A stretch of DNA of 64,000 nt from Nautilia sp. PV-1 (GTDB lineage: Bacteria; Campylobacterota; Campylobacteria; Campylobacterales; Nautiliaceae): positions 672,501 to 736,500 of the forward strand of contig NZ_CP026530.1 of the NCBI RefSeq assembly GCF_004006315.1. The letters run 5' to 3'. The notes below the pieces were generated by a model. That model was not told the origin of the DNA. It was given only the letters and a program-made list of their open reading frames with translations, and ran no database searches. Every line of letters begins with the position of its first letter. Position 1 is the first letter of the stretch. The translations under genes and the position numbers were made by a program. Below, one piece after another: positions 27,478-34,278 of the stretch.

Positions 27478-27978
27478 TTATTCGAAATTTTTTAAAAATT
27501 CCAAAATTCCTTTTATGATGTCTTTCGGGCTTGGAGGACATCCCGGAATAAAATAATCTATTTTTAAATCATTTCCTTTAATCGCATACGTTTTTTCAAA
27601 AACTCCCAAATCTTTTACGCAGTCCCCCACTGCGATAACCCATTTAGGACTTGGCATCTGATTATAGCAGTCGATTGCGTGATGATACATGTTCATGGTC
27701 ATAACGCCGCTTAACAACATAACGTCAGCGTGTCTCGGGCTTGCCACGAAATGGATTCCAAGCCTTTCAAGGTCGTAATACGGATTGCTTAGCGCGTTGC
27801 ATTCGGCTTCGCATGCGTTACAGCTTCCGCTATCTACCATTCTTATGGCGAGACTTCCAGCAAAATGTTTTTTGATTTTGTCTTTTATCTGTTTTTTTAT
27901 CTGTTCAAGTTCTTTATCAAATTCGGGATTTTCCGTGAGGATTCCCGTTTTTATTCTTTTTTCCCAGAATCTAAGCAT
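27478..27978 (-). CDS. NuoB/HyfI-like small subunit of an Ehr-type complex
   Basis: 166 residues, homologous to the small subunit of group 4 hydrogenases and to NuoB of complex I. It keeps the ligands of the proximal [4Fe-4S] cluster: Cys53 and Cys56 in SGSCNACEAE, Cys120 in VGDC and Cys147 in PGCPPSP. It should therefore still carry an N2-like cluster facing the membrane arm. It is the last gene of the cluster, separated by a 193-bp structured gap from the large-subunit gene. Its partner has no metal-binding cysteines, so the electron path around this cluster is unclear. Confidence 0.88.
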   Translation of the reverse strand: MLRFWEKRIKTGILTENPEFDKELEQIKKQIKDKIKKHFAGSLAIRMVDSGSCNACEAECNALSNPYYDLERLGIHFVASPRHADVMLLSGVMTMNMYHHAIDCYNQMPSPKWVIAVGDCVKDLGVFEKTYAIKGNDLKIDYFIPGCPPSPKDIIKGILEFLKNFE

Positions 27979-28171
27979 TTTTCAGTCCTTTATATAGGAA
28001 ATATTTTAAACTTTCTAAAAGCACTCAGCAAGAGTGCGGATTTTAGATATTTCAAAAAAGCTAAAAAGTGCAAACGCAAGCGCCCTTTGAGTTTAGAGCA
28101 CTTTTTTATACGCTTTTTTTCCATTAAAATCAGCAATTGTTTCACTTTATTTAGTAAATTTTTATTTTAAT
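27979..28171 (-). other. Structured 193-bp gap inside the Ehr-type cluster
   Basis: No gene is found on either strand. Two hairpins are present: GCACTC-AGCAA-GAGTGC (28021-28037) and AAAAAGTGC...GCACTTTTT (28063-28071 with 28098-28106), the second with a T-run on both strands, so it could act as a terminator or attenuator in either direction. In hydrogenase-4 operons a ferredoxin-like gene (hyfH) sits at this place; nothing resembling CxxCxxCxxxCP is encoded here. The nuoB-like gene has its own AAAGGA ribosome-binding site. Confidence 0.6.
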
Positions 28172-29536
28172 TTACAAATCGTTCCCCGCATAACTCAAAT
28201 CGAAACTTTTGTTTATCAGCGGAAAATCGGCGATAATATCTTTGTAAATGGTCGTATGAAACGCCTGCCAGTTTATGTGCGAAGGGTCGCGCGCGTAAAA
28301 CCTCTCAACCGCGCCGTTTTTTATTTTCATATACATAAAAAGTTCTCCGATTGAGCTTTCCACAAAGCTCATGTATTCGCCGTCTTTAAAGCTATTAAGT
28401 ATATATTTTTCTTTTTTATCCGTTTTGAAATTTTTTATCATTTCTATGGAATTAAGCACTTCTTTTATTCTGACTTTAAACCTGTCCCCGACTTCACCCT
28501 TCACGCCAAACTGCATTTTATATCCGAAATTTTTATAAAAAACATTATCCCTCACGTCGATTTTAATTCCGCTGGCTCTTGCGCCGACTCCCACTACGCC
28601 GTATTTTATCGCTTTTTCCCGGCTGAGCGCCCCGGTGGTATTGAATCTGTCCCAAAGACTTGCGATGTCGTCCGTCCAGTCTTCGAAAAACTCCACTTCT
28701 TTTTTAAGATAATTTACAAAATCAACGAGCGTTTCGTAATCAACCGAGAGCTCTTCTTTTATAGCTCCAAAACCGAATCTGTGCCCGGTGATTTTTGCCA
28801 TAACCCTTCTTGCGTCTTCACTTAGTTTGCTCATAAAAGCAAGGGCAGGGGCAAATCCGGCGTCGTTTGGAATGAACCCGAGGTCCGTTAAGTGATGAAT
28901 TATTCTTTCAAGCTCAAGCAGGGTGTAATATTTTTGTTTTAGAGAATTTGGGATTTCGGTTTCACTTGCCTGGGCCAAAATATCCATAAACGCTATCTGA
29001 TAAGCGATGCTTTCATTCCCGCTTATTCTTTCAACAATTTTTTTTATTTCTAGGGGTTTTTTGCCTTCGACCATTTTTTCGATTCCGCGGTATTTGTAAT
29101 AATGCCTGACTTCAAGGTGAAGTATTTCTTCTCCCGCCTGTGAAAATTGAAAATGTCCTGGTTCTATTATTCCGGCGTGAATTGGACCAACCGGCACGAC
29201 AAAAACGTTGTCACCTTCTATTTCTTCATATTTATAAGGCTTGTATTCGTCAAATTCAACGTCTTTTTTGTCAAAATCTTTTCTCAAAGGGAAGATATTT
29301 TTTGGAAATCTTTCGTGTTTAACGAGGGGTCTTTTATCAAACGCCCCTTCAAATTCTATTCCGAATTCGTCTCTTATTTTTCTTTCCATCCAAATGGCTG
29401 AGGGATATTTTGGCATAATGGATTTTACGATAGGATTTTGTTTATCGACTTTTTGGCGGCGTATTTCCTTGTCAAAAACGTCTATAATTTCAAAATGCTC
29501 AGTATTATCCAGTGCAAATCTTGCTATCAGTCTCAT
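28172..29536 (-). CDS. NuoCD/HyfG-like subunit lacking all NiFe-ligand cysteines
   Basis: 454 residues, fusion of a NuoC-like part (about 1-95, with AIWMERKIRDEFGIEFEGAFDKRPLVKHERFP) and a NuoD/hydrogenase large-subunit part. Where active enzymes read R-x-C-G-x-C, this reads R170-I-S172-G-N-E175. Where they end D-P-C-x-x-C, it reads D417-P-S419-H-I-N422. The whole protein has no cysteine. It therefore cannot bind a NiFe centre. Such proteins are known as Ehr (energy-converting hydrogenase-related) complexes and are thought to link group 4 hydrogenases with complex I. It also lacks the C-terminal tail that HycI-type proteases remove. Overlaps the HyfF-like gene by 4 nt. Electron partner unknown. 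Confidence 0.92.
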   Translation of the reverse strand: MRLIARFALDNTEHFEIIDVFDKEIRRQKVDKQNPIVKSIMPKYPSAIWMERKIRDEFGIEFEGAFDKRPLVKHERFPKNIFPLRKDFDKKDVEFDEYKPYKYEEIEGDNVFVVPVGPIHAGIIEPGHFQFSQAGEEILHLEVRHYYKYRGIEKMVEGKKPLEIKKIVERISGNESIAYQIAFMDILAQASETEIPNSLKQKYYTLLELERIIHHLTDLGFIPNDAGFAPALAFMSKLSEDARRVMAKITGHRFGFGAIKEELSVDYETLVDFVNYLKKEVEFFEDWTDDIASLWDRFNTTGALSREKAIKYGVVGVGARASGIKIDVRDNVFYKNFGYKMQFGVKGEVGDRFKVRIKEVLNSIEMIKNFKTDKKEKYILNSFKDGEYMSFVESSIGELFMYMKIKNGAVERFYARDPSHINWQAFHTTIYKDIIADFPLINKSFDLSYAGNDL

Positions 29537-30912
29537 TTTACGATCCCTTCTATAAAATCAAAACTTTGCGGAAGTAACAATAGCGCGGTTGATATAAAAA
29601 GAATAAAAACGGCGATTATTTCACTAATGTAAACTTTTTTTTCTTTTTTATCGCCCGCATATAGCATATCCTGATAAATATGGACGAATCTGTAAAAAAT
29701 AATGCTTAAAAGTCCTAAAATCGCAAAAATAGCAAAAAGCATCAAAAATAAATAGTATGAATCTTTTGCGACGTCCACCATTGCCTTAAATCCGTATATT
29801 TCACTGAAAAACATAGGACTCGGAGGCAGTGAAATTACTCCCAAAAAAAGAGCCGCTATCATAAACGCCGCAAATTTATTGACGTTTTTTAACGCTCCTC
29901 TGAAAAGATATTTTTTGTTTTGTTCTAAAACCTGTGAACTTATAAAAAGCCCCGGTTTCATAAATGCGTGTGCCGCAAAATGAAGCAGTGCTGCAAAATA
30001 TCCCCCGCTAATCCAAAAGAGCGCGATCAGACTCATATGCTCAATTCCGGAAAGCGAAAAAAGACGAACGAAATCTTTTGCCCTGTAAAGCAGGAAACTT
30101 ATAAAAAATAAAGTTACAAGTATATATCCGTATCCGATACCGATTAAATGGAAATAATTTATATGTTTTTCTATTTCGCTGAATCTGAAAAACCCTAAAA
30201 TTATCGCACTCTCAAGAATTCCGCTAAACAGTGCCCCCACCTGATAAATGGATGCCCTTTCAATGTCCGCAAGCCATAGATTCATAGGGAAAAATCCCAT
30301 TTTTATGAACATTCCGACCATTACGAATAAAAATCCTAGCTCAAAAAGATAATTGTTTATTTTTCTGGTGTTATTCATAAGGGCGTAAAAATTCATGGCG
30401 TAATCACCTAAAACATCTTTGCTTGATGCGTAAATTAGAATAATTCCAAAAAGAATGAGAGATATTGCTATAGCCCCTACGATTAGATATCTCCAGGCTT
30501 CAATGTCGGCTTCTTTTGTGATTTTTACTTTTATCATATAAACGGTTGAAAGGGTCGCAAATTCAAGTCCTATCCAATAAAGCCCCATGTTGTTAGAAAC
30601 GATTGAGATAATAATTCCAAGCCAGAAAACCGCAAAAAACCTGTAAAACCGTTTAATTGATTTGTAGTTTAAGTTTATTCTCTCAGGCAGTGAAATCATC
30701 GAAACGAATACCGCTACGGCGACTATTGAAGATACAGTCAAAACAAAACCTCCAAGTTTATCGACAAAAAAATATTTATTGATAAACGGATGAAATAATA
30801 CATAAATCACCCCGATCGCAATAGTTGAAGAAATAATGGCCATAAGCGTTCTGTTTATTTTAAAATAACTTAGTATAAAAATTAAAACCGGCGGTACGAA
30901 AAGAAATTCCAT
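29533..30912 (-). CDS. HyfF/NuoN-like proton-pumping membrane subunit
   Basis: 459 residues, about 14 membrane helices, Mrp-antiporter-like fold. IGLEFATLSTVYM matches the conserved Glu of helix 5, and MGFFPMNLWLADIERASIYQVGALFSGILESA carries the Lys/Pro-containing helix 7-8 region. HFAAHAFMKPGLFISS holds the His/Lys of the later channel. These residues suggest a working proton or sodium channel. It is adjacent (one base) to the HyfE-like gene and overlaps the NuoCD-like gene by 4 nt. Confidence 0.88.
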   Translation of the reverse strand: MEFLFVPPVLIFILSYFKINRTLMAIISSTIAIGVIYVLFHPFINKYFFVDKLGGFVLTVSSIVAVAVFVSMISLPERINLNYKSIKRFYRFFAVFWLGIIISIVSNNMGLYWIGLEFATLSTVYMIKVKITKEADIEAWRYLIVGAIAISLILFGIILIYASSKDVLGDYAMNFYALMNNTRKINNYLFELGFLFVMVGMFIKMGFFPMNLWLADIERASIYQVGALFSGILESAIILGFFRFSEIEKHINYFHLIGIGYGYILVTLFFISFLLYRAKDFVRLFSLSGIEHMSLIALFWISGGYFAALLHFAAHAFMKPGLFISSQVLEQNKKYLFRGALKNVNKFAAFMIAALFLGVISLPPSPMFFSEIYGFKAMVDVAKDSYYLFLMLFAIFAILGLLSIIFYRFVHIYQDMLYAGDKKEKKVYISEIIAVFILFISTALLLLPQSFDFIEGIVK

Positions 30913-31500
30913 CTATTCTCCTTGATATTTAAAAAGTAGATTGATTATCAGAATAAACATCATTAAATCAAAAAACACGCCAAGCTCTATCAGCATAGGC
31001 ATACCGTTCGTTGCGACTACGCCTAGTAAAAATAGGGCGTTTTCGATGAATAAAAATCCGACTATTTTTGCAATCATTCTTTTGTGTTCCATTATCAGCA
31101 AAAGGGCTAAAAACAGAGAACTTATAGAAATTGCAACGAAATTCGGATGCGTTTGAAACGTTTTTAAGACAGGTGTTATGAGATAATAGGTAAATACCAG
31201 AATTACGGGTACGAGTATCGTTAAATACTGGATTTTTATAATCGGCGTAATGTCCCTTGAAATTTTGAATTTGAACGTTATTTTTTTCAGAATAAAAGGA
31301 ATGATTAAAAATTTTACCAGTATCGTAATTATTCCCATAACTATAAGCTCGTTAAGACCGTAAACGCTTCCAAGTGTAATTCCTATAAGTCCCAAAATAA
31401 GCGAATTAATCCCGTACCAGAAATAGAGCCTGAAAAGCCTGTTCGTAAAAAGAGCCGTTATCAGTACGGCGATAAAAAATCCTATTAAAACATTTATCAT
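30913..31500 (-). CDS. HyfE-like membrane subunit
   Basis: 195 residues with about six hydrophobic helices and little else. Length and helix pattern match HyfE, whose C-terminal half is NuoK-like; HKRMIAKIVGFLFIENALFLLGV contains the Glu expected in the K-channel helix. It sits between the HyfC-like and HyfF-like genes in the order B-C-E-F, as in hydrogenase-4 operons but without hyfD. Separated by one base from each neighbour. Confidence 0.85.
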   Translation of the reverse strand: MINVLIGFFIAVLITALFTNRLFRLYFWYGINSLILGLIGITLGSVYGLNELIVMGIITILVKFLIIPFILKKITFKFKISRDITPIIKIQYLTILVPVILVFTYYLITPVLKTFQTHPNFVAISISSLFLALLLIMEHKRMIAKIVGFLFIENALFLLGVVATNGMPMLIELGVFFDLMMFILIINLLFKYQGE

Positions 31501-31501
31501 T

Positions 31502-32422
31502 TTATTCTCCCACTACATAATAAATAAATAGAGATAAAAAACCAAAAATTATCGCAATGCCAAGAAGATTTGGAACTTTAAAAAGTCTGAGTTTTGCTGT
31601 ATTTACCTCTATAAAAGCTACCAAAACTGAAACTAAAATTAATTTTATTATAAAAACTAAAACAGCCAAACACCAGCAAAGATTTGTTCCAAAAGGTAAA
31701 AAGAGACTTACAAATAAATTTGCGAAAATTGCAAATTTAAGCGCATTTGCCGTCTCTATCAGAGCCAAATCGGCTCCCGTGCTTTCAAGAATCATGGCTT
31801 CGTGCACCATCGTCAGTTCAAGATGAGTTTCAGGGTTGTCCACAGGTATTCTTCCGTTTTCTGCTATTAAAATAATAAAAAAGCTGATTGCCGCCAATAT
31901 AAAACTTGCTGCGTGGTTTATATCGAAGTGATTATTAAGATTTAACACCGCTCCACTGATCCCAATGCTTTTTCCAATAAGCGAAATACTGAATATTGTT
32001 AAGATCATAGCTGGTTCTACGAGTGCCGAAATAAACGCTTCACGACTGCTGCCTATTCCTCCAAAGGCGCTTGCACTGTCAAGCCCTAGAAGCATCAAAA
32101 AGAAAGTGGAAAGCGACAAAAGCCCCGTAATTGTAAATGCGTCTATAAATGAAATATAAAAACTTTTACTAAAAACGGGCGGCATTAAAAACACCACCAC
32201 TACTATCGGAGCCAAAATCATAAATACCGCAATTCTGCTCATAATACTTGATTCTTTGGCGTAAACCAGCTCTTTGTTGATGAGTTTCATAAAATCGACA
32301 TACGGCTGAAAAGGTGAAAGCGGTTTTTTAAACAAAAGATACATTTTAACGGATTTCGTAAGTCCCAGTAAAAACGGTGCTATTAAAAAAATAATTAGAA
32401 TGGTTAGCAAATAATTTATCAT
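31502..32422 (-). CDS. HyfC/NuoH-like membrane anchor subunit
   Basis: 306 residues, about eight helices. It links the peripheral arm to the pumping arm in group 4 hydrogenases and complex I. LFKKPLSPFQPYVDFMKLINKE near residue 32 and ENGRIPVDNPETHLELTMVHEAMILE (about 205-230) are the NuoH/HycD hallmark loops with the conserved Glu residues next to the quinone-like cavity. It overlaps the HyfB-like gene by 4 nt. Confidence 0.92.
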   Translation of the reverse strand: MINYLLTILIIFLIAPFLLGLTKSVKMYLLFKKPLSPFQPYVDFMKLINKELVYAKESSIMSRIAVFMILAPIVVVVFLMPPVFSKSFYISFIDAFTITGLLSLSTFFLMLLGLDSASAFGGIGSSREAFISALVEPAMILTIFSISLIGKSIGISGAVLNLNNHFDINHAASFILAAISFFIILIAENGRIPVDNPETHLELTMVHEAMILESTGADLALIETANALKFAIFANLFVSLFLPFGTNLCWCLAVLVFIIKLILVSVLVAFIEVNTAKLRLFKVPNLLGIAIIFGFLSLFIYYVVGE

Positions 32423-34278
32423 TTTTTCTCTCCGAAAATGAATTTGTAAAATATCGCCATTACCACAATTTCAAGCAAAATATTCCCCCAGTTGTATTCT
32501 TTGTAAAACACTCTGAAACTGAAAAGCGTAAAAATTAAAAGCATAAAAATAAGGCTTGAATATTTGGTTCTTTCAAAATGTGAAAGTCTGTATACGAAAT
32601 AGCTTAAATAATTTAGTCCTTTTACTACACTGTCATACAGACTTTTTTCAAAAAGAGGTTTTATATGCACTTCGTAAAGTGATGACGAAAATTTGGTTTT
32701 GTGACCGGCGAGGGTCTGAGTGTGAGTATGCACTTCAGGGCGGTAAAGCCACTCAAAAAATCTTCTGATAGGTCCGGCAAAACCGGTGGCAGAATATTGG
32801 CTTTTTGCGGATGTGTTGTATCCGCATGCCCATGTATGATAAATTCTGATTTTCGGATTTAGGTATTTGTAAAATGCGTATATAGCAGATACGACGATTA
32901 TCAGTCCCGCCAAAATCAAAATAGGCGCAACCGCTCCGTTTGAATTAAGTGAATGCATAACCCAGATATTTTGGAAAAGTTTATGATAAATATCTGCAAT
33001 CGGCATGGAGTGGTTTATTATTTTTATAAAGAAAGGCATAAAAAGCATGAGCGAAATTACAACACCGGCCATTAAAATCTGACCTGTGAGCATTAATCTG
33101 TTTACCTCTTTTGCGTGTTTTGCGTTTTCGCTTCTGCTTAGTCCCAAAAAGGTAATACCAAAGGCTTTTACAAAACAGGCTATTGCAAGACCTCCGGTGA
33201 GGGCAAGGGCGAAAATCGCAAAAGGGAATGAAAGTTTAAGCACGAGATTATCAATACCGCTGGAGTTAAGCATACTTTGAAATATCATCCATTCGCTCAA
33301 AAATCCGTTTGTAGGAGGAAGTGCGGAGATTGAAATAGCCGCTGTTAAAAACATAAAAGCGGTTATCGGCATTAATTTGATAAGTCCTCCGTAACTTTCG
33401 ATGTTTTTTGTATGAGTTGCATACAAAACGCTTCCCGCGCTCATAAAAAGGAGGGATTTAAAGCTCATGTGGTTAAACGTGTGATACACGGCCGCAATAA
33501 ACGCAAATGCCGCCAAAACAGGAAGTTTTAAGTAGGTAAAAATCATACCCACCCCTATACCTATAAGGATAATTCCTATATTTTCTATGGAGTGGTTTGC
33601 AAGAAGAGCTTTGATATCGTGGCTCGCTATTGCGTATAATACCCCGACAAGAGACGAAATTGCGCCAAGTGCCAAAATTATTACTCCCCATTCAATCTGC
33701 CAATTCGGGATAATAAAAAGAAATCTCAAAAATGCGTAAATCGCGACTTTAAGCATAACACCGCTCATTAAAGCCGATACCGGAGAAGGGGCCGCCGGAT
33801 GGGCGTATGGCAGCCATACGTGAAGAGGCACGACCCCGGCTTTACTTAAAAATCCTATCGTTATCAAAAAAAAGAGAATTGAAGGGTATTTAAACTCAGC
33901 CGCAAGGTTTGAGAGGGTGTGAAAATTGGTAAACAAGGAATTTCCGCCAAGCATTAAGAAAAACATTAATATAAAAACAAACCCAAAATGCGTCATAAAG
34001 AAATAAAATCTTCCGGCTTTTACCGCTTCATCGGTCGGTTCTGTTAGGATTAACTGCCAGCTGCTGAGACTCATCAGCTCCCAGAAAAACAAAAACGGAA
34101 GTATCTCGTTTGATAAAACGACGCCTATCATGGAAATAATAAAAGTAAAGTAATGGATAAGAAAATGCGTTTTTCTTTTTATATGCGAAAGATATCCAGC
34201 CATATAAAAAAGATTCGGAATAACCCCAAGTAGAATTAAAAACAAAAACAACACTGAAAGTGGATTTAAATTAAACAT
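32419..34278 (-). CDS. HyfB/NuoL-like proton-pumping membrane subunit
   Basis: 619 residues, about 16 helices. FFWELMSLSSWQLI carries the conserved helix 5 Glu; GVVPLHVWLPYAHPAAPSPVSALMSGVMLKVAIY is the antiporter-like helix 7-8 block with Lys; YHTFNHMSFKSLLFMSAG and LPPTNGFLSEWMI follow. The late THTQTLAGHKTKFSSSLYEVHIKPLFEK stretch is the amphipathic connecting part. First gene of the six-gene cluster (order B, C, E, F, G, I; A, D and H absent). AAAGG precedes the ATG. Confidence 0.92.
   Translation of the reverse strand: MFNLNPLSVLFLFLILLGVIPNLFYMAGYLSHIKRKTHFLIHYFTFIISMIGVVLSNEILPFLFFWELMSLSSWQLILTEPTDEAVKAGRFYFFMTHFGFVFILMFFLMLGGNSLFTNFHTLSNLAAEFKYPSILFFLITIGFLSKAGVVPLHVWLPYAHPAAPSPVSALMSGVMLKVAIYAFLRFLFIIPNWQIEWGVIILALGAISSLVGVLYAIASHDIKALLANHSIENIGIILIGIGVGMIFTYLKLPVLAAFAFIAAVYHTFNHMSFKSLLFMSAGSVLYATHTKNIESYGGLIKLMPITAFMFLTAAISISALPPTNGFLSEWMIFQSMLNSSGIDNLVLKLSFPFAIFALALTGGLAIACFVKAFGITFLGLSRSENAKHAKEVNRLMLTGQILMAGVVISLMLFMPFFIKIINHSMPIADIYHKLFQNIWVMHSLNSNGAVAPILILAGLIIVVSAIYAFYKYLNPKIRIYHTWACGYNTSAKSQYSATGFAGPIRRFFEWLYRPEVHTHTQTLAGHKTKFSSSLYEVHIKPLFEKSLYDSVVKGLNYLSYFVYRLSHFERTKYSSLIFMLLIFTLFSFRVFYKEYNWGNILLEIVVMAIFYKFIFGEKK

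Follow-up and report, generated by a model that had tools for sequence, protein, structure and literature searches.

Complexes of the Ehr type, reportedly treated by Coppi in 2005 and by Marreiros in 2013, are membrane complexes derived from group-4 [NiFe] hydrogenases. Versions without CxxC motifs are already on record from Nitrospira, ammonia-oxidising archaea, and Riflemargulisbacteria, and the operon name ehrABCDLS is in print for Methylacidiphilum, where the complex was proposed to serve pH homeostasis (PMC6688271). Here, we analyzed 64,000 nt of Nautilia sp. PV-1 (hereafter the window), whose complete genome is one contig of 1,791,100 bp. Six contiguous open reading frames (ORFs) at 27478–34278 on the minus strand, to which all features of the operon described below belong, encode HyfB-, HyfC-, HyfE-, HyfF-, HyfG (NuoCD)-, and HyfI (NuoB)-like proteins. 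Judged from their sequences, these genes form an ehrABCDLS operon, which truly belongs to a known class and is, taken by itself, a modest finding. Its product is almost certainly not a hydrogenase, and it very likely serves in ion translocation. The whole explanation, an ion-translocating non-hydrogenase complex for which redox turnover is dispensable, has in our estimate a probability of about 0.5. New beyond the window is the loss of the small-subunit iron–sulfur ligands across whole lineages of relatives; no earlier report of Ehr lacking them was found in the open-access literature.

The Nautilia operon shares with the Ehr complexes of Geobacter (GSU0739–0745) and Methylacidiphilum the six genes, a large subunit without CxxC, a NuoB-like small subunit, and two antiporter-like subunits. 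Nothing essential sets it apart from other Ehr loci: it has a 193-bp insert before ehrS, and the residues S/E/S/G in its ligand columns are those of other Campylobacterota. Nearest outside the Ehr clade are relatives from Bacillota, Acidobacteriota, Myxococcota, and Planctomycetota with the same six genes and a large-subunit C-terminus of the form DFPLxNKSFEL, which differ in keeping the four cysteines and, in most cases, in having a ferredoxin domain fused to EhrS. These four-Cys relatives probably correspond to HydDB group 4f (Ehf), an assignment that draws in part on PMC10284858.

Among better-studied complexes, formate hydrogenlyase-1 of E. coli (Hyc, 7z0s) is the closest solved structure for EhrL, EhrA, and EhrB but, unlike Ehr, has a NiFe site, C-terminal processing, and the ferredoxin-like subunits HycB/HycF. 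The Mrp antiporter, which works without redox chemistry, has two MrpA/D-like subunits in common with Ehr (the Glu of transmembrane segment TM5 and the Lys of TM7 are E67 and K146 of EhrA), whereas the Ehr operon contains no MrpB, E, F, or G ORFs and adds a hydrogenase-like cytoplasmic arm and a NuoH-like subunit. Respiratory complex I shares NuoB, C, D, H, and L/M/N-like subunits with Ehr, while NuoE, F, G, and I are missing from the operon and EhrS lacks the tandem CC. The quinone-ligating His/Tyr pair of complex I (His38/Tyr87 of NuoD in Thermus numbering) is likewise absent, its counterparts in the window EhrL being I124 and G173; this speaks against a plain ferredoxin:quinone reductase of the complex I type.

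The large subunit is encoded by ehrL (28172–29536; 454 aa; PF00346, 5.6e-26; PF00329, 5.5e-15) and resembles NuoCD/HyfG without the NiFe ligands. When EhrL is aligned with the group-4 large subunits encoded elsewhere in the genome and with further Hyf-, Ech-, and Coo-like proteins, S172, E175, S448, and G451 fall in the four ligand columns. The remnant of the first CxxC is RISGNES (residues 170–176, 29009–29029; C to S172, C to E175), as the first-pass annotation of this DNA had proposed. For the second, it had named DPSHIN (417–422), which aligns instead with the hydrogenase motif RxPTxxN/RAATYNNW; the true remnant is SFDLSYAGNDL (residues 444–454, 28175–28207; C to S448, C to G451). Its claim that the NiFe site is absent is nevertheless upheld, all four ligand columns being replaced. 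The protein ends three residues past the last ligand column; the same holds for each of the 102 measured sequences without the four cysteines. EhrL thus has no C-terminal extension for a maturation protease, a trait that is not diagnostic, since several four-Cys relatives lack it too. The complete lack of cysteine in the 454 residues, also reported at first pass and seen again here, is a weak signal: relatives have incidental cysteines, 10 of the 50 window ORFs that reach 150 aa contain no cysteine, and 454 residues of this composition would lack it with a probability of about 2%. As read from these comparisons, it is an incidental detail of the lineage, and the four ligand columns are what counts.

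Relatives were gathered by tblastn against plasmids and by a scan of 85,000 species genomes, which revealed the same operon in Pseudomonadota, Nitrospirota, Actinomycetota, Deinococcota, Chloroflexota, Acidobacteriota, archaea, and candidate phyla. About 100 of the 113 retrieved loci lack the NiFe ligands, and these loci, the window among them, group in a single clade with good support. An EhrL tree for which the ligand columns had been masked places 79 of 80 Cys-less rows on a single branch (Shimodaira–Hasegawa-like approximate likelihood ratio test, 98); next to it are ten four-Cys relatives, mostly from Bacillota, whereas the true Hyf, Ech, and Coo proteins branch outside. The window EhrL sits within the Cys-less clade and not among canonical NiFe enzymes, so that tree placement, gene set, and ligand columns agree on the Ehr-type assignment made at first pass. 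The AlphaFold model of EhrL (predicted local distance difference test score, 87.8; predicted template modelling (TM) score, 0.90) has its low-confidence parts at 118–126 and 450–454, flanking the old site, and its best Protein Data Bank match is HycE (7z0s_E, TM 0.90). Some residues around the old NiFe site are invariant in EhrL. Two further large subunits show partial sets of ligands: in that of a Desulfosporosinus locus, the ligand columns read S-C-S-C, a state midway from hydrogenase to Ehr, and the NuoCD fusion of the host's own partial complex I (G000:C1:1389168–1390577) keeps the first Cys of each old CxxC (RICFMDN ... HICQGDL).

Operons listed as "hyc", encoding an H2-evolving hydrogenase, have been published for N. 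profundicola (GAmH_0718–0723; PMC2628731) and for Nautilia PV-1 itself (C3L23_RS03855–RS03880; PMC10092268), and are probably the Ehr operon of the window and its close relatives. Overall similarity and gene order are indeed like those of Hyc/Hyf, but none of the four ligands is present here or in any close relative, and the host genome has separate four-Cys large subunits at 592 kb and 1003 kb. That the operon encodes an active H2-evolving [NiFe] hydrogenase is extremely improbable. The "Hyc" annotation in both Nautilia papers looks wrong, and our analysis corrects what is probably a misannotation in these two accounts of vent bacteria.

The small subunit, encoded by ehrS (27478–27978; 166 aa; PF01058, 5e-24), is NuoB/HyfI-like. 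Its Cys53, Cys56, Cys120, and Cys147, correctly identified at first pass as [4Fe-4S] ligands, align with those of MbhJ and HycG and are kept in 101–103 of 107 relatives. In four-Cys relatives, EhrS consists of a leader, a 2x[4Fe-4S] domain, and a NuoB-like core; in the window, the leader MLRFWEKRIKTGILTE is joined straight to the core, and the N-terminal 2x[4Fe-4S] ferredoxin domain is missing. Nor does the window operon contain a ferredoxin-like ORF for electron input. Across the set, 7 of 11 loci with Cys ligands have a ferredoxin module, as against 1 of 96 loci lacking these ligands (Fisher p 1e-7, kinship ignored). Single-motif "ferredoxin" ORFs in four loci (L047, L067, L093, and L112) were judged random. 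Archaeal Ehr loci L180–L185 have a separate ferredoxin gene and an intact cluster, and on a Methanomassiliicoccus contig (L074:9140–14172) the Ehr operon includes a ferredoxin gene and lies side by side with genes for universal stress proteins and with another group-4-like cluster. The first-pass description of a proton-pumping machine with an iron–sulfur input therefore stands in part: one [4Fe-4S] site is left, but the ferredoxin module is missing, and other Ehr lineages lack even the last ligands.

This loss affects EhrS in 6 of 107 loci from several phyla, where the ligand columns read TDES (L036, Allomeiothermus plasmid), DTDN (L055, Dehalococcoidales, and L061, Methanosarcina), DCDD (L069, Magasanikbacteria), SEGD (L092), and TCDD (L098; the last two Patescibacteria-type). 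The single Cys remaining in DCDD and TCDD is too little for an ordinary [4Fe-4S] site. In Methanosarcinia, all 20 best EhrS matches (L154–L179 and L061) carry D-T-D-N and are otherwise 74–100% identical, and the full ABCDLS operon is present in all six D-T-D-N loci examined; one of these genomes is very probably that of Methanosarcina acetivorans (C2A). Likewise, all 12 Ehr-type EhrS from the Patescibacteria-type phylum to which L069 belongs (L186–L201 included), one of them read in part, lack the ligands, and a thirteenth match is a different small subunit with four cysteines. With these ligands lost, the operons of Methanosarcinia and Patescibacteria encode no recognisable redox cofactor. 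The L036 complex may not be cofactor-free, since its EhrS has an N-terminal ferredoxin-like stretch. Parsimony requires three changes for the ligand losses, although the approximately unbiased test does not strictly reject a single origin (p 0.057).

The presumed ion path is preserved throughout. EhrA (32419–34278; 619 aa; PF00361, 7e-52) is a HyfB/HycC/NuoL-like antiporter subunit whose best solved relative is HycC (7z0s_C, 1e-64), and its E67, K146, K223, H270, and K274 are conserved in 79–81 of 81 relatives. EhrB (31502–32422; 306 aa; PF00146, 2e-29) is HyfC/HycD/NuoH-like (HycD 7z0s_D, 4e-28), with E136, E188, R191, D195, E202, E208, E272, and R279 conserved in 77–78 of 78 relatives. The channel Glu and Lys residues, and a His as well, are thus kept in the membrane subunits as the first reading had stated, and antiporter- and NuoH-type residues are near invariant across the whole set. 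The two remaining membrane proteins are EhrC (30913–31500; 195 aa), a HyfE-like subunit recognized by its conserved operon position and a match to the NCBIfam hydrogenase 4 membrane subunit (1e-12, below its cut-off), and EhrD (29533–30912; 459 aa), the HyfF-like second antiporter subunit (PF00361, 1.7e-24; hydrogenase 4 subunit F, 2e-44, below its cut-off).

Relatives without the last iron–sulfur ligands keep the complex, which suggests that ion movement, and not redox chemistry, is what is retained. We infer that the conserved work of Ehr would be the movement of ions across the membrane, as protons or in proton/cation exchange, and that redox turnover would be dispensable in at least some lineages. 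That redox turnover is not essential to the complex has, in our estimate, slightly less than even odds. In Nautilia, the remaining [4Fe-4S] site of EhrS could be a structural element or a redox-sensing gate at the joint with EhrB; alternatively, the cluster might take occasional electrons from a soluble carrier. Because Nautilia keeps the cluster ligands, its own complex may be redox-driven or redox-gated.

The main rival to this explanation is a redox-driven pump, in which a soluble donor such as ferredoxin or flavodoxin would directly reduce the [4Fe-4S] cluster of EhrS. From there, electrons would reach an acceptor bound either in the old NiFe cavity or at the interface with EhrB and so power ion pumping, a scheme like that of MBS or of complex I lacking NuoEFG. 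Several observations favor such a pump and weigh against a non-redox transporter. The retention of all four EhrS ligands in the window and in most relatives places the cluster under selection in the Nautilia lineage; EhrL, with its invariant residues around the old site, and EhrS show evolutionary rates as low as those of the membrane subunits, which means that the cytoplasmic arm does something. The basal loci L074 and L180–L185, which keep both cluster and ferredoxin, look redox-active, and the lineages without EhrS ligands could be a derived offshoot. Moreover, Geobacter Ehr proteins are more abundant on formate (PMC7894505). Against the pump stand the missing ferredoxin module, the absent quinone ligands, the retention of the entire complex in lineages without cluster ligands, and the lack of any conserved redox partner gene adjoining the operon across Campylobacterota families. 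On balance, a redox-driven pump is a serious possibility, though not the expected outcome. Similarly tentative is the extension of the ion-translocating explanation to the Ehr family as a whole, according to which all its members would be relatives of complex I that transport ions with no redox turnover, the Nautilia site being merely a structural part or gate.

Lineages that lack the NiFe site, the ferredoxin, and the iron–sulfur ligands and retain the ion path amount to a natural experiment, in which at least some complexes apparently work without electron transfer. Such relatives without any cofactor ligands make the question of Ehr function testable, and genetic tools are available for Methanosarcina acetivorans. 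If true for the whole family, non-redox transport would mean that complex I-type machinery was reused as an ion transporter, and would bear on how hydrogenase and antiporter modules are coupled in complex I.

Gene neighborhoods point to no common partner. Across Campylobacterota families, no genes, including any for a redox partner, are conserved beside the operon; for GC-rich loci, neighbors were clustered from codon-trained gene calls, as clustering of all ORFs gave mostly shadow ORFs. This also bears on the formate dehydrogenase–Ehr complex proposed for Riflemargulisbacteria (PMC6349859), with which the formate response in Geobacter is consistent: given the lack of a conserved neighbor, and of an electron-input subunit that would join the two enzymes, such an arrangement is improbable here. 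A SulP-type anion transporter lies beside the operon in 8 of 117 loci from several phyla (L045, L072, L086, L088, and L108, in line; L087, L109, and L085). The Methylococcales loci, L088, and one Campylobacterota locus have it upstream of ehrA and in line with it. In the planctomycete locus L085 (137–4420), genes for DabA (PF10070, 7e-190) and a DabB-like protein are directly upstream of a four-Cys Ehr relative, with SulP downstream. By analogy with DabAB, these arrangements would fit a role connected with inorganic carbon, with Ehr linked to bicarbonate transport or to CO2 hydration driven by the proton motive force. The window and most other loci have no such neighbor, several SulP loci are close kin, and the DabA case retains the NiFe ligands, which leaves this role unlikely too. 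DabA was rejected as a general Ehr partner, as it is adjacent in this one locus only. Three of the ligand-free operons (L069, L092, and L098) lie directly downstream of, and in the same orientation as, ATP synthase gamma-beta(-epsilon) genes, and atpC is near the operon also in L199 and, divergent, in L194. In L069, the operon is followed by genes for a CBS-domain protein and an NhaD/ArsB-like transporter.

The first-pass annotation had correctly delimited the six ORFs, but regarded the set (B, C, E, F, G, I) as unusually reduced. It is in fact the usual Ehr set: the same six genes, published as ehrABCDLS, occur in nearly all complete relative loci, almost always in the order ABCDLS; S comes first in Actinomycetota and in some candidate-phylum loci. 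Within Campylobacterota, the distribution is patchy, with Ehr in 20 of 249 genomes and 12 of 56 genera. Ratios of nonsynonymous to synonymous substitution rates against two relatives are 0.03–0.09 for all six window genes, indicating strong purifying selection; the operon is therefore neither decaying nor a product of sequencing error, which had been named at first pass as a possible refutation. Its description as tight fits most junctions but not that between ehrL and ehrS, where a strongly structured insert of 193 bp (27979–28171) occupies a gap that is 9–11 bp in the closest relatives. An Rfam search with this insert returned nothing credible. A second, partial copy, 76% identical, is located at G000:C1:275324–275444, and another occurs in a different family (L129:127–233). 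Individual loci depart from the common layout in other ways: L024 contains a 955-aa ORF that is apparently an EhrD–EhrL fusion, about 5.5 kb of other genes separate ehrL from ehrS in L133, and L045, L132, L182, and L183 have a second or partial additional ehrA directly upstream of the operon.

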